From the NCBI RefSeq assembly GCF_015686655.1, contig NZ_JADPMP010000013.1:1-64000 (forward strand): a DNA stretch of 64,000 bases, written 5' to 3'. The position numbers were made by a program, and so were the translations under genes. Position 1 is the first letter of the stretch; every line of letters begins with the position of its first letter. The stretch is from Pontibacter sp. FD36 (GTDB lineage: Bacteria > Bacteroidota > Bacteroidia > Cytophagales > Hymenobacteraceae). This document shows positions 40,708-57,897 of the stretch, one piece after another. The notes beneath the pieces were generated by a model. It was not told the origin of the DNA and made no database searches. It saw only the letters and a list, made by a program, of their open reading frames with translations.

Positions 40708-40789
40708 ATAAGTGAGTGGTAAACGTAAAATTTTATCAATCCAAAGAAATTAAATACAATTTCAAAAATATCATAGAAAATGAAAAAAA

Positions 40790-40809
40790 CCACAGCTGTT
40801 ACGCTGTGG
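40790..40809 (-). terminator. Left boundary terminator of the disordered-protein locus
   Basis: CCACAGC pairs with GCTGTGG around TGTTAC. On the minus strand it is followed by TTTTTTTC. It ends the transcript of the two minus-strand low-complexity genes. Confidence 0.85.
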
Positions 40810-40910
40810 CCTTTCTCAGATGGAAATTCAATACTAATGTATAGTCACTTATACGCAATGGTGAAAAAAAGTATACAATATAGTATGGGCATTTTTAAAA
40901 CCTCTGTACG

Positions 40911-41441
40911 CTAGTATCTTCCACTCCTGTCAGGGGAGCCATAGTGGTCATCGCCGAAGTCCCTGAACTCGTCTGCGTTTCCATAAGAGGCATCGTGACG
41001 GAAGCCATGGTTGCCGCGGCTGTCGAAGTCACGGTACAGGTCGCCTTCCTCCGGATTGTCGTAGTTCGGGTTGTAGCCTGAGTTGTAACGGTAGCGGGTC
41101 CGCTCAAATCGATCCGGGTCAGCAAACCTCGGGTTGCCCCTGCTGATGCGGTCCAGGTCGTTCTCTGAACCATACGGAAGTCCATACTCATCATGCCGTG
41201 GCACACCGGTATAGTTGCTGGTATCATACATGGTGTTGTAGTAGTCCGCCATGTTGCCACGGTAGTTGCCTTCAAACCTGTCTCGCTCTTCGTGCCGTGC
41301 ACGATACTGACGCCCAGATCCTTCGTCTTCCGGTCTTTGGTCCCAGTCGCGTTGCTCCCTACGGTACTGCTGTTGGCGCGGATGTTCCTCCTGGTATTGG
41401 CGGCTGAAGTCGCCATAATTCTGATCTCTATAGTCTCTCAT
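40911..41441 (-). CDS. Arg/Tyr/Asp/Gly-rich disordered protein 1
   Basis: 176 residues of low complexity with no signal peptide and no predicted helix core. It starts MRDYRDQNYGDFSRQYQEEH and ends DDHYGSPDRSGRY. I count about 28 Arg, no Lys and no Cys, many Tyr, Asp, Gly, Asn and Gln, and very few aliphatic residues. Basic and acidic residues are finely mixed. This composition is that of an intrinsically disordered protein with Arg-Tyr sticker chemistry, as in proteins that form condensates or bind nucleic acid; function here is inference. A frame in another phase over the same DNA is Thr/Ala-rich and is rejected. It is the second gene of a minus-strand pair. Confidence 0.75.
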   Translation of the reverse strand: MRDYRDQNYGDFSRQYQEEHPRQQQYRREQRDWDQRPEDEGSGRQYRARHEERDRFEGNYRGNMADYYNTMYDTSNYTGVPRHDEYGLPYGSENDLDRISRGNPRFADPDRFERTRYRYNSGYNPNYDNPEEGDLYRDFDSRGNHGFRHDASYGNADEFRDFGDDHYGSPDRSGRY

Positions 41442-41461
41442 GTTTTTACTTTTTTAAAATG

Positions 41462-41494
41462 ACAGCCGCAGGGGAGAATGTCCCCTGCGGCTGT
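41462..41494 (-). terminator. 14-bp hairpin between disordered proteins 1 and 2
   Basis: ACAGCCGCAGGGGA pairs perfectly with TCCCCTGCGGCTGT around GAATG. It lies between the two minus-strand genes and has only a short T-rich tail, so it may act as a partial terminator that sets the ratio of the two products. Confidence 0.8.
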
Positions 41495-41507
41495 TTGATT
41501 TTACATA

Positions 41508-42191
41508 TTAATGACGATTGTGCCGGTCTTCGGAGCGGCGCTGGCGGTCGTTCTGTCCCCAGCGGTCCATGTTGCTGTAATAGCTATCTTCGCCAAAGTG
41601 ATCGCGGCCCTCCGTATGGTTGCGGCCTGCAAAGCCTCCGCTGTAGTCGTTGTCGTAGGCCGGGTTGTTCATCTCGTAACGGCGGTATGACTCGTAGTCA
41701 CCCATAGAGGAGTGTCCTTGGAAGCCCTGATCGCCGCGTCTTCTCTGACGGCTTATATCATGCCCGAAGGACTCATCATATCGGCCGGAACGTGTCCACG
41801 AGTTGCCCTGCCGGCGCATGTCATCATAGTCGCGGTCGCTGTAGTCGGCCTGCGGGTCATAGTGTCGGCCTGAGTTATAGTCGTCGTTGGGTACATAGCT
41901 CATGCCGTAGGGGTTATCCTGCCCTCTGCGGTTGCGTGAGGTAAAATCCTCTCCGCTGTACTGTGCACCGCCCGGCTGAAATCGACCCTGACGCGAACCG
42001 TACTCATGATCTATGTTGGTGTTGAAAGTTCTTGTATCATAGTAATCGTCTTCTTGCTCACCATACCCGCTGTTAAAGTGCGAGTCCACGGTGTAATTGC
42101 CGCGGTCTGAGTTCTCGCCGTGGTGATGGCCGTGCGCCCAGCGTGGCTCCATGTTACGATTGTCGCGGTTTTCTTCTCTGTTGTTTCTCAT
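41508..42191 (-). CDS. Arg/Tyr/Asp/Gly-rich disordered protein 2
   Basis: 227 residues of low complexity, starting MRNNREENRDNRNMEPRWAH and ending RRSEDRHNRH. I see no Lys, no Cys and no Leu; Arg, Asp, Tyr, Gly, Asn and Ser dominate, and a His cluster (AHGHHHGE) lies near residue 20. No folded domain, signal or membrane segment is visible. It shares composition and local motifs (GRYDES, SGRHYDP) with proteins 1 and 3, but not a clear residue-by-residue alignment. It faces protein 3 across a 129-base divergent promoter region. The family is not named; annotation elsewhere is likely hypothetical. Confidence 0.75.
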   Translation of the reverse strand: MRNNREENRDNRNMEPRWAHGHHHGENSDRGNYTVDSHFNSGYGEQEDDYYDTRTFNTNIDHEYGSRQGRFQPGGAQYSGEDFTSRNRRGQDNPYGMSYVPNDDYNSGRHYDPQADYSDRDYDDMRRQGNSWTRSGRYDESFGHDISRQRRRGDQGFQGHSSMGDYESYRRYEMNNPAYDNDYSGGFAGRNHTEGRDHFGEDSYYSNMDRWGQNDRQRRSEDRHNRH

Positions 42192-42320
42192 AGCATTGTG
42201 GTTTTAATACATACATTATTGCTACTGTTTACGGGCACGCCCCTGCTTTGGGTTAAGGACGCTGCGTAAACTCCCAACCCAAATGTGCGTTTATAGAGGG
42301 TGTACCAATCAAGATAAAAA
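42192..42320. promoter_or_regulatory. Divergent promoter region of the disordered-protein locus
   Basis: 129 bases separate the starts of proteins 2 and 3. An inverted repeat TTTGGGTT (42247-42254) / AACCCAAA (42276-42283) lies near the middle and is a candidate operator or cruciform. I cannot fix -7 elements with confidence. Confidence 0.4.
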
Positions 42321-42983
42321 ATGGACAGATATAATAACTGGCAGGACCGCCGGGATAAAAACAGACGCGACAATAACCGAAACGACGAATCGCAGTACAG
42401 AGGCGCTTACCGCCTGGATGAAGACAGTCACTACAGCACCTACAACCGCTCTGGTCAGGGCGGCAGAGACCGCGATCGTTACAGCGAAGACCAGGGGGGC
42501 GACTACATATACCGTCGCAGCCGCAACCTACAGGACAACGACGACTATACCCAGCGCCAGTACCAGCAGAGCTACCGCGGCGGCGGCTCCCGCCAGGGAT
42601 CGTACAGCGACTTTGGTGGCCGCTATGGAGGCAGCGCAGGTATGCGCGACAACCGCTCAGGTTACAACGACCCCAGGAGCAGCGAGCGCAGCGGCCGACA
42701 GCAATACGGGGACCATTACGTCAACCGTACTTCCGGCAATTTCGACGGCGATTACCGTCCTGACAATTACCCGCATCGCCGCGACGAGAACTACGGGAAC
42801 ATGGCCGGCTCGCTGAGCTTTGGCTATGACGGCGACCGCAACTCCGACCCGGACTACAACCGCCGCTATAACCCCATGACCGGCGAAATGCGCGAACGTC
42901 AGCGTGACTACGAACAACGACAGCCACGCCGCTATGGCCCGCCTGACCGCACCGGCTCTAACCCCGATTATGACCGCTACTAA
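42321..42983 (+). CDS. Arg/Tyr/Asp/Gly-rich disordered protein 3
   Basis: 220 residues, starting MDRYNNWQDRRDKNRRDNNR and ending GSNPDYDRY. It has one Lys and no Cys, with Arg, Asp, Tyr, Gly, Asn, Ser and Gln dominant; GGGSRQGSYSDFGGRYGGS is a typical stretch. It has the same features as proteins 1 and 2. The region 150-200 (AGSLSFGYDGDRNSDPDYNR) is the least repetitive. It heads the plus-strand unit with protein 4. A competing frame at 42283-42816 is Thr/Ala-rich, an expected shadow of GC-rich repeats. Confidence 0.75.
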   Translation: MDRYNNWQDRRDKNRRDNNRNDESQYRGAYRLDEDSHYSTYNRSGQGGRDRDRYSEDQGGDYIYRRSRNLQDNDDYTQRQYQQSYRGGGSRQGSYSDFGGRYGGSAGMRDNRSGYNDPRSSERSGRQQYGDHYVNRTSGNFDGDYRPDNYPHRRDENYGNMAGSLSFGYDGDRNSDPDYNRRYNPMTGEMRERQRDYEQRQPRRYGPPDRTGSNPDYDRY

Positions 42984-43046
42984 GGTATAGGCATAACCTT
43001 GGGACCAATTCAGAGTAAAACTTAATATAACTAAAACAGATTGAAG

Positions 43047-43292
43047 ATGAACGCAGATAAGAATAAAGACCGGAACAGAGACCAAAATATAAGCAAAATA
43101 AATGAGGGCAACAAAGTGCCTAATATTCACCCAACAGCCAAGAAGGATCCGTCAGAGCAGATTCCACGCTCAGAGGAGAGCGATCAGGCAGGTCGCGCCA
43201 TGGGCAATGAGCCACGCAGCGGCGGCCGTCAGGGTGGCAAAAGCGTAGAAGACGGCGGTCAGGATGTCGGCAGTAGCGCCGGAAGCCGCTAA
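43047..43292 (+). CDS. Small hydrophilic disordered protein 4
   Basis: 81 residues from the ATG at 43047 (a TTG two codons earlier is possible). It starts MNADKNKDRNRDQNISKINE and ends GGRQGGKSVEDGGQDVGSSAGSR. It has no aromatic residue and no Cys, and is rich in Lys, Asp, Gly, Ser and Gln. This resembles small stress-induced hydrophilins more than the Arg/Tyr-rich proteins upstream. It lies 63 bases after protein 3 and is followed by a strong terminator, so the two share a transcript. Confidence 0.65.
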   Translation: MNADKNKDRNRDQNISKINEGNKVPNIHPTAKKDPSEQIPRSEESDQAGRAMGNEPRSGGRQGGKSVEDGGQDVGSSAGSR

Positions 43293-43310
43293 TTCGAGGT
43301 AATTTCATAG

Positions 43311-43348
43311 AAGGAAGGCCGGGAATGTCCCGGCCTTCCTTTTTTTTA
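43311..43348 (+). terminator. Right boundary terminator of the disordered-protein locus
   Basis: AAGGAAGGCCGGGA pairs with TCCCGGCCTTCCTT (14 bp) and is followed by a run of T. Confidence 0.92.
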
Positions 43349-56331: not shown

Positions 56332-57897
56332 TTAAAACTTCATACCCTCGTACTCCAGCTTTTCATCTTCAGCCGTCTGTTTTATGGTAAGTTTAATGTT
56401 ATTGCTACGGGCGGTCTCTTTGTAGTTCTCGATCAGTTCGATCACATCCGGGTCTACCACGGCCGAGCGGGACATGTCTATTTCCAGTTCAGCGCCTTCC
56501 GGCACTCTGCGAAGTTCCTCCAGGATATTGCCCTTGTTCAGGAAAGTCACTTCCTCTGCCAGCACAATGCGGTACTTCTCTCTGCCTGCCTGTGATTTCT
56601 CCTTCACTACGGTGTGTGACACGTGGTAGCTGTTTTTGAGGATAAAGAAGATACCCACTACCATACCAATGCCTATACCTGTGAGCAGGTCAGTGAACAC
56701 GATGGCCAGCACGGTTACTACAAATGGCAGAAACTGGCTCAGGCCACCACGGTACATGGCTTTGAACAGGGCCGGCTTGGCCAGCTTATACCCCACCACA
56801 AACAGAATAGCGGCCAGTGAGGCAAGCGGTATCAGGTTGAGCAGACCAGGTATAGCAATTACGCTGGCCAGGATCAGCACACCGTGAATAAGGGCCGAAA
56901 GCTTGGTACGGCCACCTGACTGAATGTTGGCTGAGCTGCGCACGATCACCTGCGTAACAGGCAGACCACCGATCAGCCCCGATACGATGTTACCGACGCC
57001 CTGCGCCTTCAACTCGCGGTTAGCCGGGCTGATACGCTTCTGTGGGTCCAGTTTATCGGTCGCCTCCAGGCAAAGCAGGGTTTCAAGGCTGGCTACGACT
57101 GCAAGTGTGCCCGCCAACATTAACACCTCGTAAGTGAGGATACGGCTGAAGTCAGGCGCGGTAAACTGCTGAAAGAAGCCGCCCACACTCGTTGCCACCG
57201 GTAGTTCTACCAGGTGGTTAGCGCGCAAGGCCATCTCCGGGAAGGCGTTCAGGAACACCAGGTTCAGCACAATACCCAACACCACCACCACGAGCGGACC
57301 CTGTATGATCTGGAAAATTTTGCCTTTCTTAGACAATACCATATCCCAGAAAATCAGGATAGCCAGGGAAAGCGCACTGATGATAACCGCTGCGGGTGAT
57401 ATATAACGTAAAGAGTTAAAGATTAATGAAAAAGTGGTTTCGCCAGATGGCTCCAGGAAGTGCAGACTACCCTCGTAGCTTTCATCATACCCAAAGGCAT
57501 GCGGAATCTGCTTGAGGATAATGATCACACCGATACCCGAAAGCATCCCCTTAATAACCGAGGAAGGGAAATAATACCCAATGCTCCCCGCTTTCAGGAA
57601 TCCGAGTACCAGCTGTATGACACCAGCCAGCACTACGGCAGACAGAAACACTTCAAAACTGCCCAGACCCTCAATGGCATGCAATACAATCACGGCCAGG
57701 CCTGCCGCCGGACCACTTACCCCCAGCTGCGAACCGCTGATAAGTGTTACGACTATACCTCCTACAAAGCCGGCAATGATACCGGAAAACAGTGGAGCGC
57801 CGGACGCCATGGCAATTCCAAGGCAAAGCGGTACTGCGACCAAAAAGACCACAATACCTGCCGGCAGATCATTCTTTAACTCTTTAAAGGTAACCAT
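56332..57897 (-). CDS. SulP-family anion transporter with STAS domain
   Basis: 521 residues. The N-terminal cytoplasmic part leads to 10-14 membrane helices, with the SulP features VAVPLCLGIAMASGAPLFSG, GSQLGVSGPAAGLAVIVLH and GGLPVTQVIVRSSANIQSGG. A STAS domain follows at about 435-510 (FLNKGNILEELRRVPEGAEL, IDMSRSAVVDPDVIELI). SulP proteins carry sulfate, bicarbonate or other anions. The co-encoded carbonic anhydrase makes bicarbonate the most plausible substrate here, as in BicA-type systems, but that is inference. It is the first gene of the operon. Confidence 0.93.
   Translation of the reverse strand: MVTFKELKNDLPAGIVVFLVAVPLCLGIAMASGAPLFSGIIAGFVGGIVVTLISGSQLGVSGPAAGLAVIVLHAIEGLGSFEVFLSAVVLAGVIQLVLGFLKAGSIGYYFPSSVIKGMLSGIGVIIILKQIPHAFGYDESYEGSLHFLEPSGETTFSLIFNSLRYISPAAVIISALSLAILIFWDMVLSKKGKIFQIIQGPLVVVVLGIVLNLVFLNAFPEMALRANHLVELPVATSVGGFFQQFTAPDFSRILTYEVLMLAGTLAVVASLETLLCLEATDKLDPQKRISPANRELKAQGVGNIVSGLIGGLPVTQVIVRSSANIQSGGRTKLSALIHGVLILASVIAIPGLLNLIPLASLAAILFVVGYKLAKPALFKAMYRGGLSQFLPFVVTVLAIVFTDLLTGIGIGMVVGIFFILKNSYHVSHTVVKEKSQAGREKYRIVLAEEVTFLNKGNILEELRRVPEGAELEIDMSRSAVVDPDVIELIENYKETARSNNIKLTIKQTAEDEKLEYEGMKF

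Follow-up and report, generated by a model that had tools for sequence, protein, structure and literature searches.

Three of the four proteins encoded by a divergent gene cassette conserved across the genus Pontibacter are selectively depleted of lysine (Lys) and rich in arginine (Arg) and tyrosine (Tyr). The cassette (genes P1–P4) was analysed in a window of 64,000 nucleotides (nt) from Pontibacter sp. FD36 (positions 1 to 64,000 of contig NZ_JADPMP010000013.1; family Hymenobacteraceae) and in related genomes. We hypothesize that P1–P4, together with a further gene located elsewhere in the genome (P5), represent a core, stress-type gene set in which P2–P1, P3–P4 and P5 would be controlled by an extracytoplasmic function (ECF) sigma factor and P1, P2, P3 and P5 would be disordered Arg-Tyr sticker-and-spacer proteins that serve as protectants or condensate formers. 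For this explanation as a whole, we estimate a probability of roughly 45%. The cassette comprises four genes:

P1, 40911–41441, minus strand: 176 amino acids (aa), Lys-free and Arg/Tyr-rich, second gene of the leftward pair, predicted to be disordered.
P2, 41508–42191, minus strand: 227 aa, Lys-free and Arg/Tyr-rich, first gene of the leftward pair, predicted to be disordered.
P3, 42321–42983, plus strand: 220 aa, Arg/Tyr-rich with one Lys, containing the motifs YRGAYR and NYGNMAGSLSxGYDG.
P4, 43047–43292, plus strand: 81 aa (start codon ATG at 43047), glycine (Gly)-rich and hydrophilic, with seven Lys.

P2 and P1 are read leftward and P3 and P4 rightward, diverging from a 129-base gap between P2 and P3. 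This gap, the coordinates and the lengths of the first three proteins had been given in a preliminary description of the window and proved correct on recheck, as did its statement that the unusual composition, with one Lys in total, no cysteine (Cys) and abundant Arg and Tyr, is limited to the first three proteins. The translations of P1, P2 and P3 contain 0, 0 and 1 Lys, respectively, and no Cys, and their Lys content is the lowest among the 42 window open reading frames (ORFs) of at least 150 aa (median 5.7%). Arg makes up 14–18% and Tyr 9–12% of their residues, which places them among the Arg/Tyr-rich, Lys-poor compositions of FUS/DDX4-type drivers of phase separation. Across 50 copies of each protein, Lys stays at ~0.5%, and Cys occurs twice among the P1 copies and never in those of P2 and P3. 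P4 contains no aromatic residues and belongs to a family distinct from P1–P3. All four proteins are strongly hydrophilic, with grand averages of hydropathicity (GRAVY) of −2.03, −2.02, −2.18 and −1.60 and Gly contents of 9.7, 11.5, 12.3 and 13.6% for P1–P4. A composition filter (Lys ≤1.5%, Arg ≥10%, Tyr ≥7%) applied to 801 ORFs from the window and the loci fetched from other genomes was passed by 136, all labelled P1, P2, P3 or P5/P3-like except two, which are P3-like genes of a sister genus (g6).

Searches of 50 Pontibacter genomes recovered P1, P2 and P4 in every one (50/50 each). P3 was detected in 48 with a single query sequence and in all 50 with a profile (A3), and by tblastn in all 49 other loci. 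The ~11 kb surrounding the locus were fetched from the 49 other genomes, and the order and orientation P1 (−), P2 (−), P3 (+), P4 (+) were retained in every case (49/49). Named contigs bearing a P2 relative were all from Pontibacter (9/9), and the genus group of the window (g1) is taken as Pontibacter on this basis. Third codon positions take 56–68% of substitutions in the P1–P4 frames, and the median ratios of nonsynonymous to synonymous substitution rates (dN/dS) were 0.079, 0.076, 0.149 and 0.084 for P1, P2, P3 and P4 (computed within a set of 12 close genomes for pairs of dS 0.05–1.5; 13, 38, 51 and 51 of 66 pairs, respectively). P1–P4 are real genes under purifying selection and conserved genus-wide, in agreement with the earlier view of a self-contained conserved unit rather than junk DNA, for which dN/dS and frame maintenance had been named as checks. 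From positional base composition, P1, P2 and P3 would be expected to contain 370, 442 and 453 Lys codons, against 43, 56 and 56 observed (~8-fold depletion); P4 is not depleted (448 codons vs 330 expected). Lys codons lie far below positional expectation in P1–P3, so that three of the four proteins selectively exclude Lys.

AlphaFold2 models of P1 (mean predicted local distance difference test (pLDDT) 45.3, predicted template modelling score (pTM) 0.12) and P2 (mean pLDDT 43.2, pTM 0.14) contained no residue with pLDDT ≥70, which suggests that both proteins are intrinsically disordered; P3 and P5 are presumably disordered as well. Conservation within these proteins is concentrated: 51 of 176 positions in P1, 72 of 227 in P2 and 33 of 220 in P3 are at least 90% identical across the 50 genomes, and the best 30 residues of P1 reach 89% mean identity. 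The conserved core of P1 spans approximately residues 119–165 and includes GYNPNYDNPEEGDxYRxFDSRGNHG. In P3, NYGNMAGSLSxGYDG is conserved, and this motif and YRGAYR are common to other genera. Tyr, Gly, Arg, aspartate (Asp) and asparagine (Asn) account for the majority of these conserved positions (36/51 in P1, 51/72 in P2 and 23/33 in P3).

Profiles were built from 31 of the 50 Pontibacter proteins (A1–A3) or 29 of the 50 (A4). Among 291 genomes of the order, covering 115 genera, A1 and A2 matched Pontibacter only (6 genomes each). In a family sample of 150 genomes, A3 reached beyond Pontibacter into 10 genomes of the sister genus g6, one of g2 and two of g3. One g3 match (the G014 copy, L154) is interrupted by a stop and the second scores weakly (E 0.005); an intact 301-aa P3-like gene is present in another g3 genome. 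The 11 P3-like proteins of g6 and g2 are single ORFs of 328–356 aa, Cys-free and with 0–3 Lys. A profile of these 11 proteins (A5), searched against 390 genomes of the order, gave matches in 27 genomes, spread over 4 of 129 genera, and in 10 Pontibacter genomes exposed a further locus:

P5, L248:8059–8829 (own genome, contig 8, outside the window): 257 aa, Arg/Tyr-rich with zero Lys, preceded by a P3-type promoter motif.

The P5 gene was read in all 10 Pontibacter contexts fetched; at least nine other Pontibacter genomes of the A5 sample gave no P5 match, in a search that was not aimed at proving absence. P3 aligns to the C-terminal part of the g6/g2 proteins (hhalign 98.4%) and P5 to their middle (98.5%), and the P3 and P5 profiles matched 11 of 11 g6/g2 proteins and none of 550 shuffled copies. 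Direct homology between P3 and P5 was not seen (hhalign 2.8%): the link runs only via the longer proteins of other genera, through different parts for each. We infer a single ancestral gene, parts of which now reside in P3 and P5 of Pontibacter, and likewise the direction of this change. No homology was found between P1 and P2, P1 and A5, P2 and A5, or P2 and P5 (hhalign probability ~1% or less), and hmmsearch of A1 and A2 against the 11 g6/g2 proteins gave no match. P4-like genes with an EDGG...GSSAGSR-like tail occur in g3 and g6 (L159–L166), elsewhere in the genome; the P3-type motif was absent from the 150 nt before their first ATG (0/8), which is possibly not the true start in all of them. 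The four-gene neighbourhood that the preliminary description proposed to look for in other Hymenobacteraceae was not encountered there, other genera having only P3-like single genes and, elsewhere, P4-like genes.

Aligning the P2–P3 gap of the 50 genomes revealed two conserved blocks on either side, with one putative promoter motif per side:

42267–42293, plus strand: ECF-type promoter motif of P3–P4, TAAACT-N15-CGTTTA, 28–29 nt before the P3 ATG.
42230–42256, minus strand: ECF-type promoter motif of P2–P1, TTAACC-N16-CCGTA, 38 nt before the P2 ATG.

The P3-side pattern AAC[CT]-N15-CGTT, ~31 nt before the ATG, occurs in all 50 genomes (spacing 15 in 47, 16 in 3), and the P2-side pattern AACC-N17-CGTA, ~41 nt before the ATG, in 41 (40 with the same spacing and one with another), leaving nine without a match. 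The strict P2 string TAACC-N16-CCGTA has 42 occurrences in the scanned loci, 39 of them at the cassette and three elsewhere. Of the 23 P5 and P3-like genes, among them those of g2, g3 and g6, 22 have a P3-type motif 20–60 nt before their start, vs 6 of the 641 remaining ORFs of these loci; the genomes behind both counts are related to one another, so that a Fisher value computed from them is no true probability. These counts treat L149 and L156 as P3-like (the automatic labels give 20/21 and 8/643) and place the g3 relative L154 (G014) outside the 23-gene set; ORFs <150 aa were excluded, and the longest-ORF rule recovered P1, P2 and P3 in 40, 49 and 48 of 50 genomes. The single exception among the 23 genes, L257, reads AACG where AAC[ACT] would be expected, with the spacing unchanged. 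Since the motif was defined on the P3 set, only P5 and the genes of other genera test it independently.

A −35 AAC paired with a −10 CGT has been described in a review as a hallmark of ECF sigma factors (PMC8103513), and we regard both motifs as candidate promoters of such a factor. The general-stress promoter of EcfG is given as GGAAC-N16-CGTT (PMC7083833); the Pontibacter motifs share with EcfG and other ECF promoters the −35 AAC, the −10 CGTT and a similar spacing, but differ in having no GG preceding AAC. EcfG is described as exclusive to Alphaproteobacteria (PMC3892343), so another ECF factor would be required in Pontibacter. The SM6 promoter motif of Flavobacterium psychrophilum, reported as induced in low nutrients (PMC9723704), may also count among the closest systems; it differs in its genes, some of which encode type IX secretion components and Band-7 proteins. 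A relaxed form of the P3 motif gave 148 matches in the scanned loci vs 115 for a reversed control. Of the 148, 72 precede family genes, so the remainder are at or below background. Relaxed matches were also noted outside the family. One lies 25–26 nt upstream of a gene for a small hydrophobic, membrane-like protein (METPM...) in two Pontibacter genomes (L251:5562–5795, minus strand; L255:11191–11427, plus strand), possibly a further member of the gene set. Another lies 52 nt upstream of a window ORF that is transporter-like as judged by eye (56335–57897, minus strand, 521 aa) and may be due to chance.

None of P1–P4 has a Pfam or NCBIfam match at E ≤1, including to late embryogenesis abundant (LEA) profiles, and similarity to a well-described family, which would have undermined the preliminary description, was thus looked for without result. 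Three g6/g2 relatives had no Pfam match, P1–P5 and one g6 relative had no match to PHROGs phage families and P1–P5 none to PADLOC anti-phage defence families at E ≤0.01, and the A1 and A2 profiles had no match among PDB sequences; membership of a known family is rejected for these proteins in the databases named. A phage or plasmid origin is unsupported, as tblastn with P2 found nothing in 72,556 plasmid records and A5 nothing in viral contigs. Searches of titles and abstracts returned no description of P1–P5, with broad queries sampled in part and subscription journals mostly outside coverage. Hydrophilins form a class that is defined by composition alone.

Among the known systems closest to P1–P3 are the disordered regions of the FUS/DDX4 type, which are enriched in Arg and Tyr, contain Gly, serine (Ser), Asn, glutamine (Gln) and Asp as spacers and are poor in Lys. 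P1–P3 share these compositional traits. They differ in being stand-alone bacterial proteins, with no RNA-binding or helicase domain found, a charged fraction of 0.33–0.38 and, for P1 and P2, a net charge of −10. In the mechanism that we propose, two divergent transcripts (P2–P1 and P3–P4) would arise from paired ECF-sigma-type promoters (−35 AAC, −10 CGT), and P5 would be expressed elsewhere in the genome from a promoter of the P3 type. On a signal, P1, P2, P3 and P5 would be co-produced as disordered, mixed-charge, aliphatic-poor polypeptides nearly free of Lys and Cys, with Arg and Tyr as stickers and Asp, Gly, Asn and Ser as spacers. Arg-Tyr and charge contacts may then drive their mutual association, and short invariant motifs may engage some partner, giving rise to a protective cytoplasmic phase resembling a condensate or a gel. 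We infer the cytoplasmic location, the co-induction under stress and the association into a protective phase.

The exclusion of Lys but not Arg, the presence of Tyr and Arg among the most conserved residues, the predicted disorder, the stress-type motif and the adjacency of several such proteins all favour this mechanism. In prion-like domains, Lys has been described as destabilizing interactions and Arg-to-Lys changes as having a large scaling constant, the effects of Arg being context-specific (PMC11820118). A more far-reaching version would see a dedicated ECF-controlled gene set for stand-alone sticker-and-spacer proteins and hold that Lys was purged so that Arg-Tyr contacts could build an inducible cytoplasmic condensate or glass, an independent prokaryotic counterpart of the eukaryotic Arg/Tyr drivers, and that an ancestral single gene, kept in sister genera, was split in Pontibacter to give P3 and P5, to which P1 and P2 were added. 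We consider this version possible, but less likely than not.

Several observations weigh against the proposed mechanism. P1 and P2 each carry a net charge of −10 (isoelectric points 5.1 and 5.7), and the charged fraction of the proteins is 0.33–0.38. P4, which would be co-transcribed with P3, is Lys-rich. The low pLDDT of P1 and P2 may be partly accounted for by their shallow alignments (31 rows each), and the near-invariant long stretches suggest specific binding beyond bulk properties. On the regulatory side, the strict P3 motif gave 29 matches in the 50 Pontibacter genomes (23 at the cassette and 6 elsewhere) and the reversed control 7; 19 matches vs 33 for the control in 16 g6 genomes, of which 13 are at the P3-like gene; and three vs two in the own genome. 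The strict pattern reveals no larger regulon. No sigma-factor gene was noticed beside the locus, although no family search for one was made. The two boxes stand 2 nt farther apart on the P2 side than on the P3 side, and a single factor for both motifs is therefore a guess. As for the stress-related condensate idea of the preliminary description, the suggested disorder of P1 and P2, the ECF-type motif and the Arg/Tyr richness with Lys exclusion lend it partial support; its nucleic-acid-protecting component is unsupported, given that no nucleic-acid-binding or helicase domain was found in P1–P4 (Pfam, NCBIfam) and that P1 and P2 are acidic.

The main rival is a simpler protectant role, as the composition of P1–P4 fits that of hydrophilins. 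Hydrophilins are defined by a hydrophilicity index >1 and Gly >6% (PMC7448490), and the GRAVY values and Gly contents of all four window proteins fall within this definition. Acting as solutes or shields, they would protect proteins or membranes during water loss, without phase separation, and the Arg/Tyr bias would be incidental. The predicted disorder of P1 and P2 and the stress-type promoter motif are further points of likeness, and one desert Pontibacter has been described as desiccation- and radiation-resistant (PMC4460873). However, P1–P3 differ from hydrophilins in being nearly Lys-free, in their very high Arg and Tyr contents and in their long conserved stretches, and P1–P4 match neither LEA nor other families in Pfam and NCBIfam. 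A plain hydrophilin role explains neither these stretches nor a Lys deficit of about eightfold beside such abundant Arg, and we regard it as unlikely, while taking it seriously.

Less probable still is that these proteins are disordered scaffolds or adaptors whose invariant short motifs bind an enzyme or regulator, such as a sigma or anti-sigma factor, and control the state of signalling. The concentrated conservation in P1–P3, up to the best 30 residues of P1, and the conserved blocks common to other genera are in line with such a role, but the prevalence of Tyr, Gly, Arg, Asp and Asn at conserved positions is what stickers and spacers would be expected to show. Similarly improbable, and slightly more so, is a chemical reason for avoiding Lys, in which Tyr-based radical sinks or a cross-linkable matrix without reactive amines or thiols would counter oxidative or radiation damage. 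The scarcity of Lys and Cys beside abundant Tyr and the ECF-type promoter motif agree with this idea, which leaves the scarcity of aliphatic residues unexplained and finds no enzyme-family match for any of the four genes. That the frames are by-products of base composition, as the long ORFs overlapping P1 and P3 in other frames (40895–41416, minus strand; 42283–42816, plus strand) might suggest, is refuted by the third-position substitutions, the dN/dS well under 1 and the invariant layout, and we give it next to no credence; these overlapping ORFs probably result from the codon composition of P1 and P3.

Additional features mark the borders and gaps of the cassette:

40781–40818, minus strand: terminator-like hairpin after P1 (terminator scan).
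43309–43343, plus strand: terminator-like hairpin after P4 (terminator scan); 43 of 50 genomes have a stem of ≥8 pairs downstream of P4.
41461–41495, no strand assigned: strong hairpin in the gap separating the stop of P2 from the start of P1; 24 of 50 genomes have a stem of ≥8 pairs there.
40812–40843, minus strand: conserved non-coding element within the 3′ region of P1, TACATTAGTATT..ATTTCCATCTGAGAAA, just before the terminator at 40818–40781.

The cassette had been described as bounded by terminators: terminator-like hairpins do lie at both ends, but the number of terminator-like sites, 5 vs 3.2 ± 1.8 in shuffled sequences, is not significant. The hairpin between P2 and P1, absent from the preliminary description, scored as terminator-like on the plus strand only and might lower P1 relative to P2. 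The exact sequence CATCTGAGAAA of the non-coding element is present in 33 of 50 genomes, with near forms in L100, L102, L106, L122 and L124; Rfam gave no match at this element at E ≤1 and sub-threshold matches only overall, and the element could be a 3′-untranslated-region small RNA. Of the neighbouring genes, which vary where the cassette layout is kept, one SRPBCC-like and one encoding a flavin adenine dinucleotide (FAD) oxidoreductase, the first was matched in 23 and the second in 24 of the 49 ~11-kb slices (both in 22, neither in 24), absence meaning no tblastn match at 1e-4 within the slice.

The cassette represents a genus-wide natural experiment in which one amino acid has been removed from several probably disordered proteins and Arg and Tyr have been kept. 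A study of Pontibacter korlensis under gamma radiation reported 73 novel differentially expressed genes, none of which could be tied, from the portion of the article available, to the P1–P4 unit (PMC4460873). If P1–P3 and P5 do condense, they would provide a small bacterial system for testing the eukaryotic sticker grammar in vivo, and might also yield a compact protectant. Otherwise, they would point to a different reason for a cell to ban Lys from a protein. Either way, four conserved genes without a known family now share a common testable frame, and the genus that carries them has members tolerant of desiccation and radiation.

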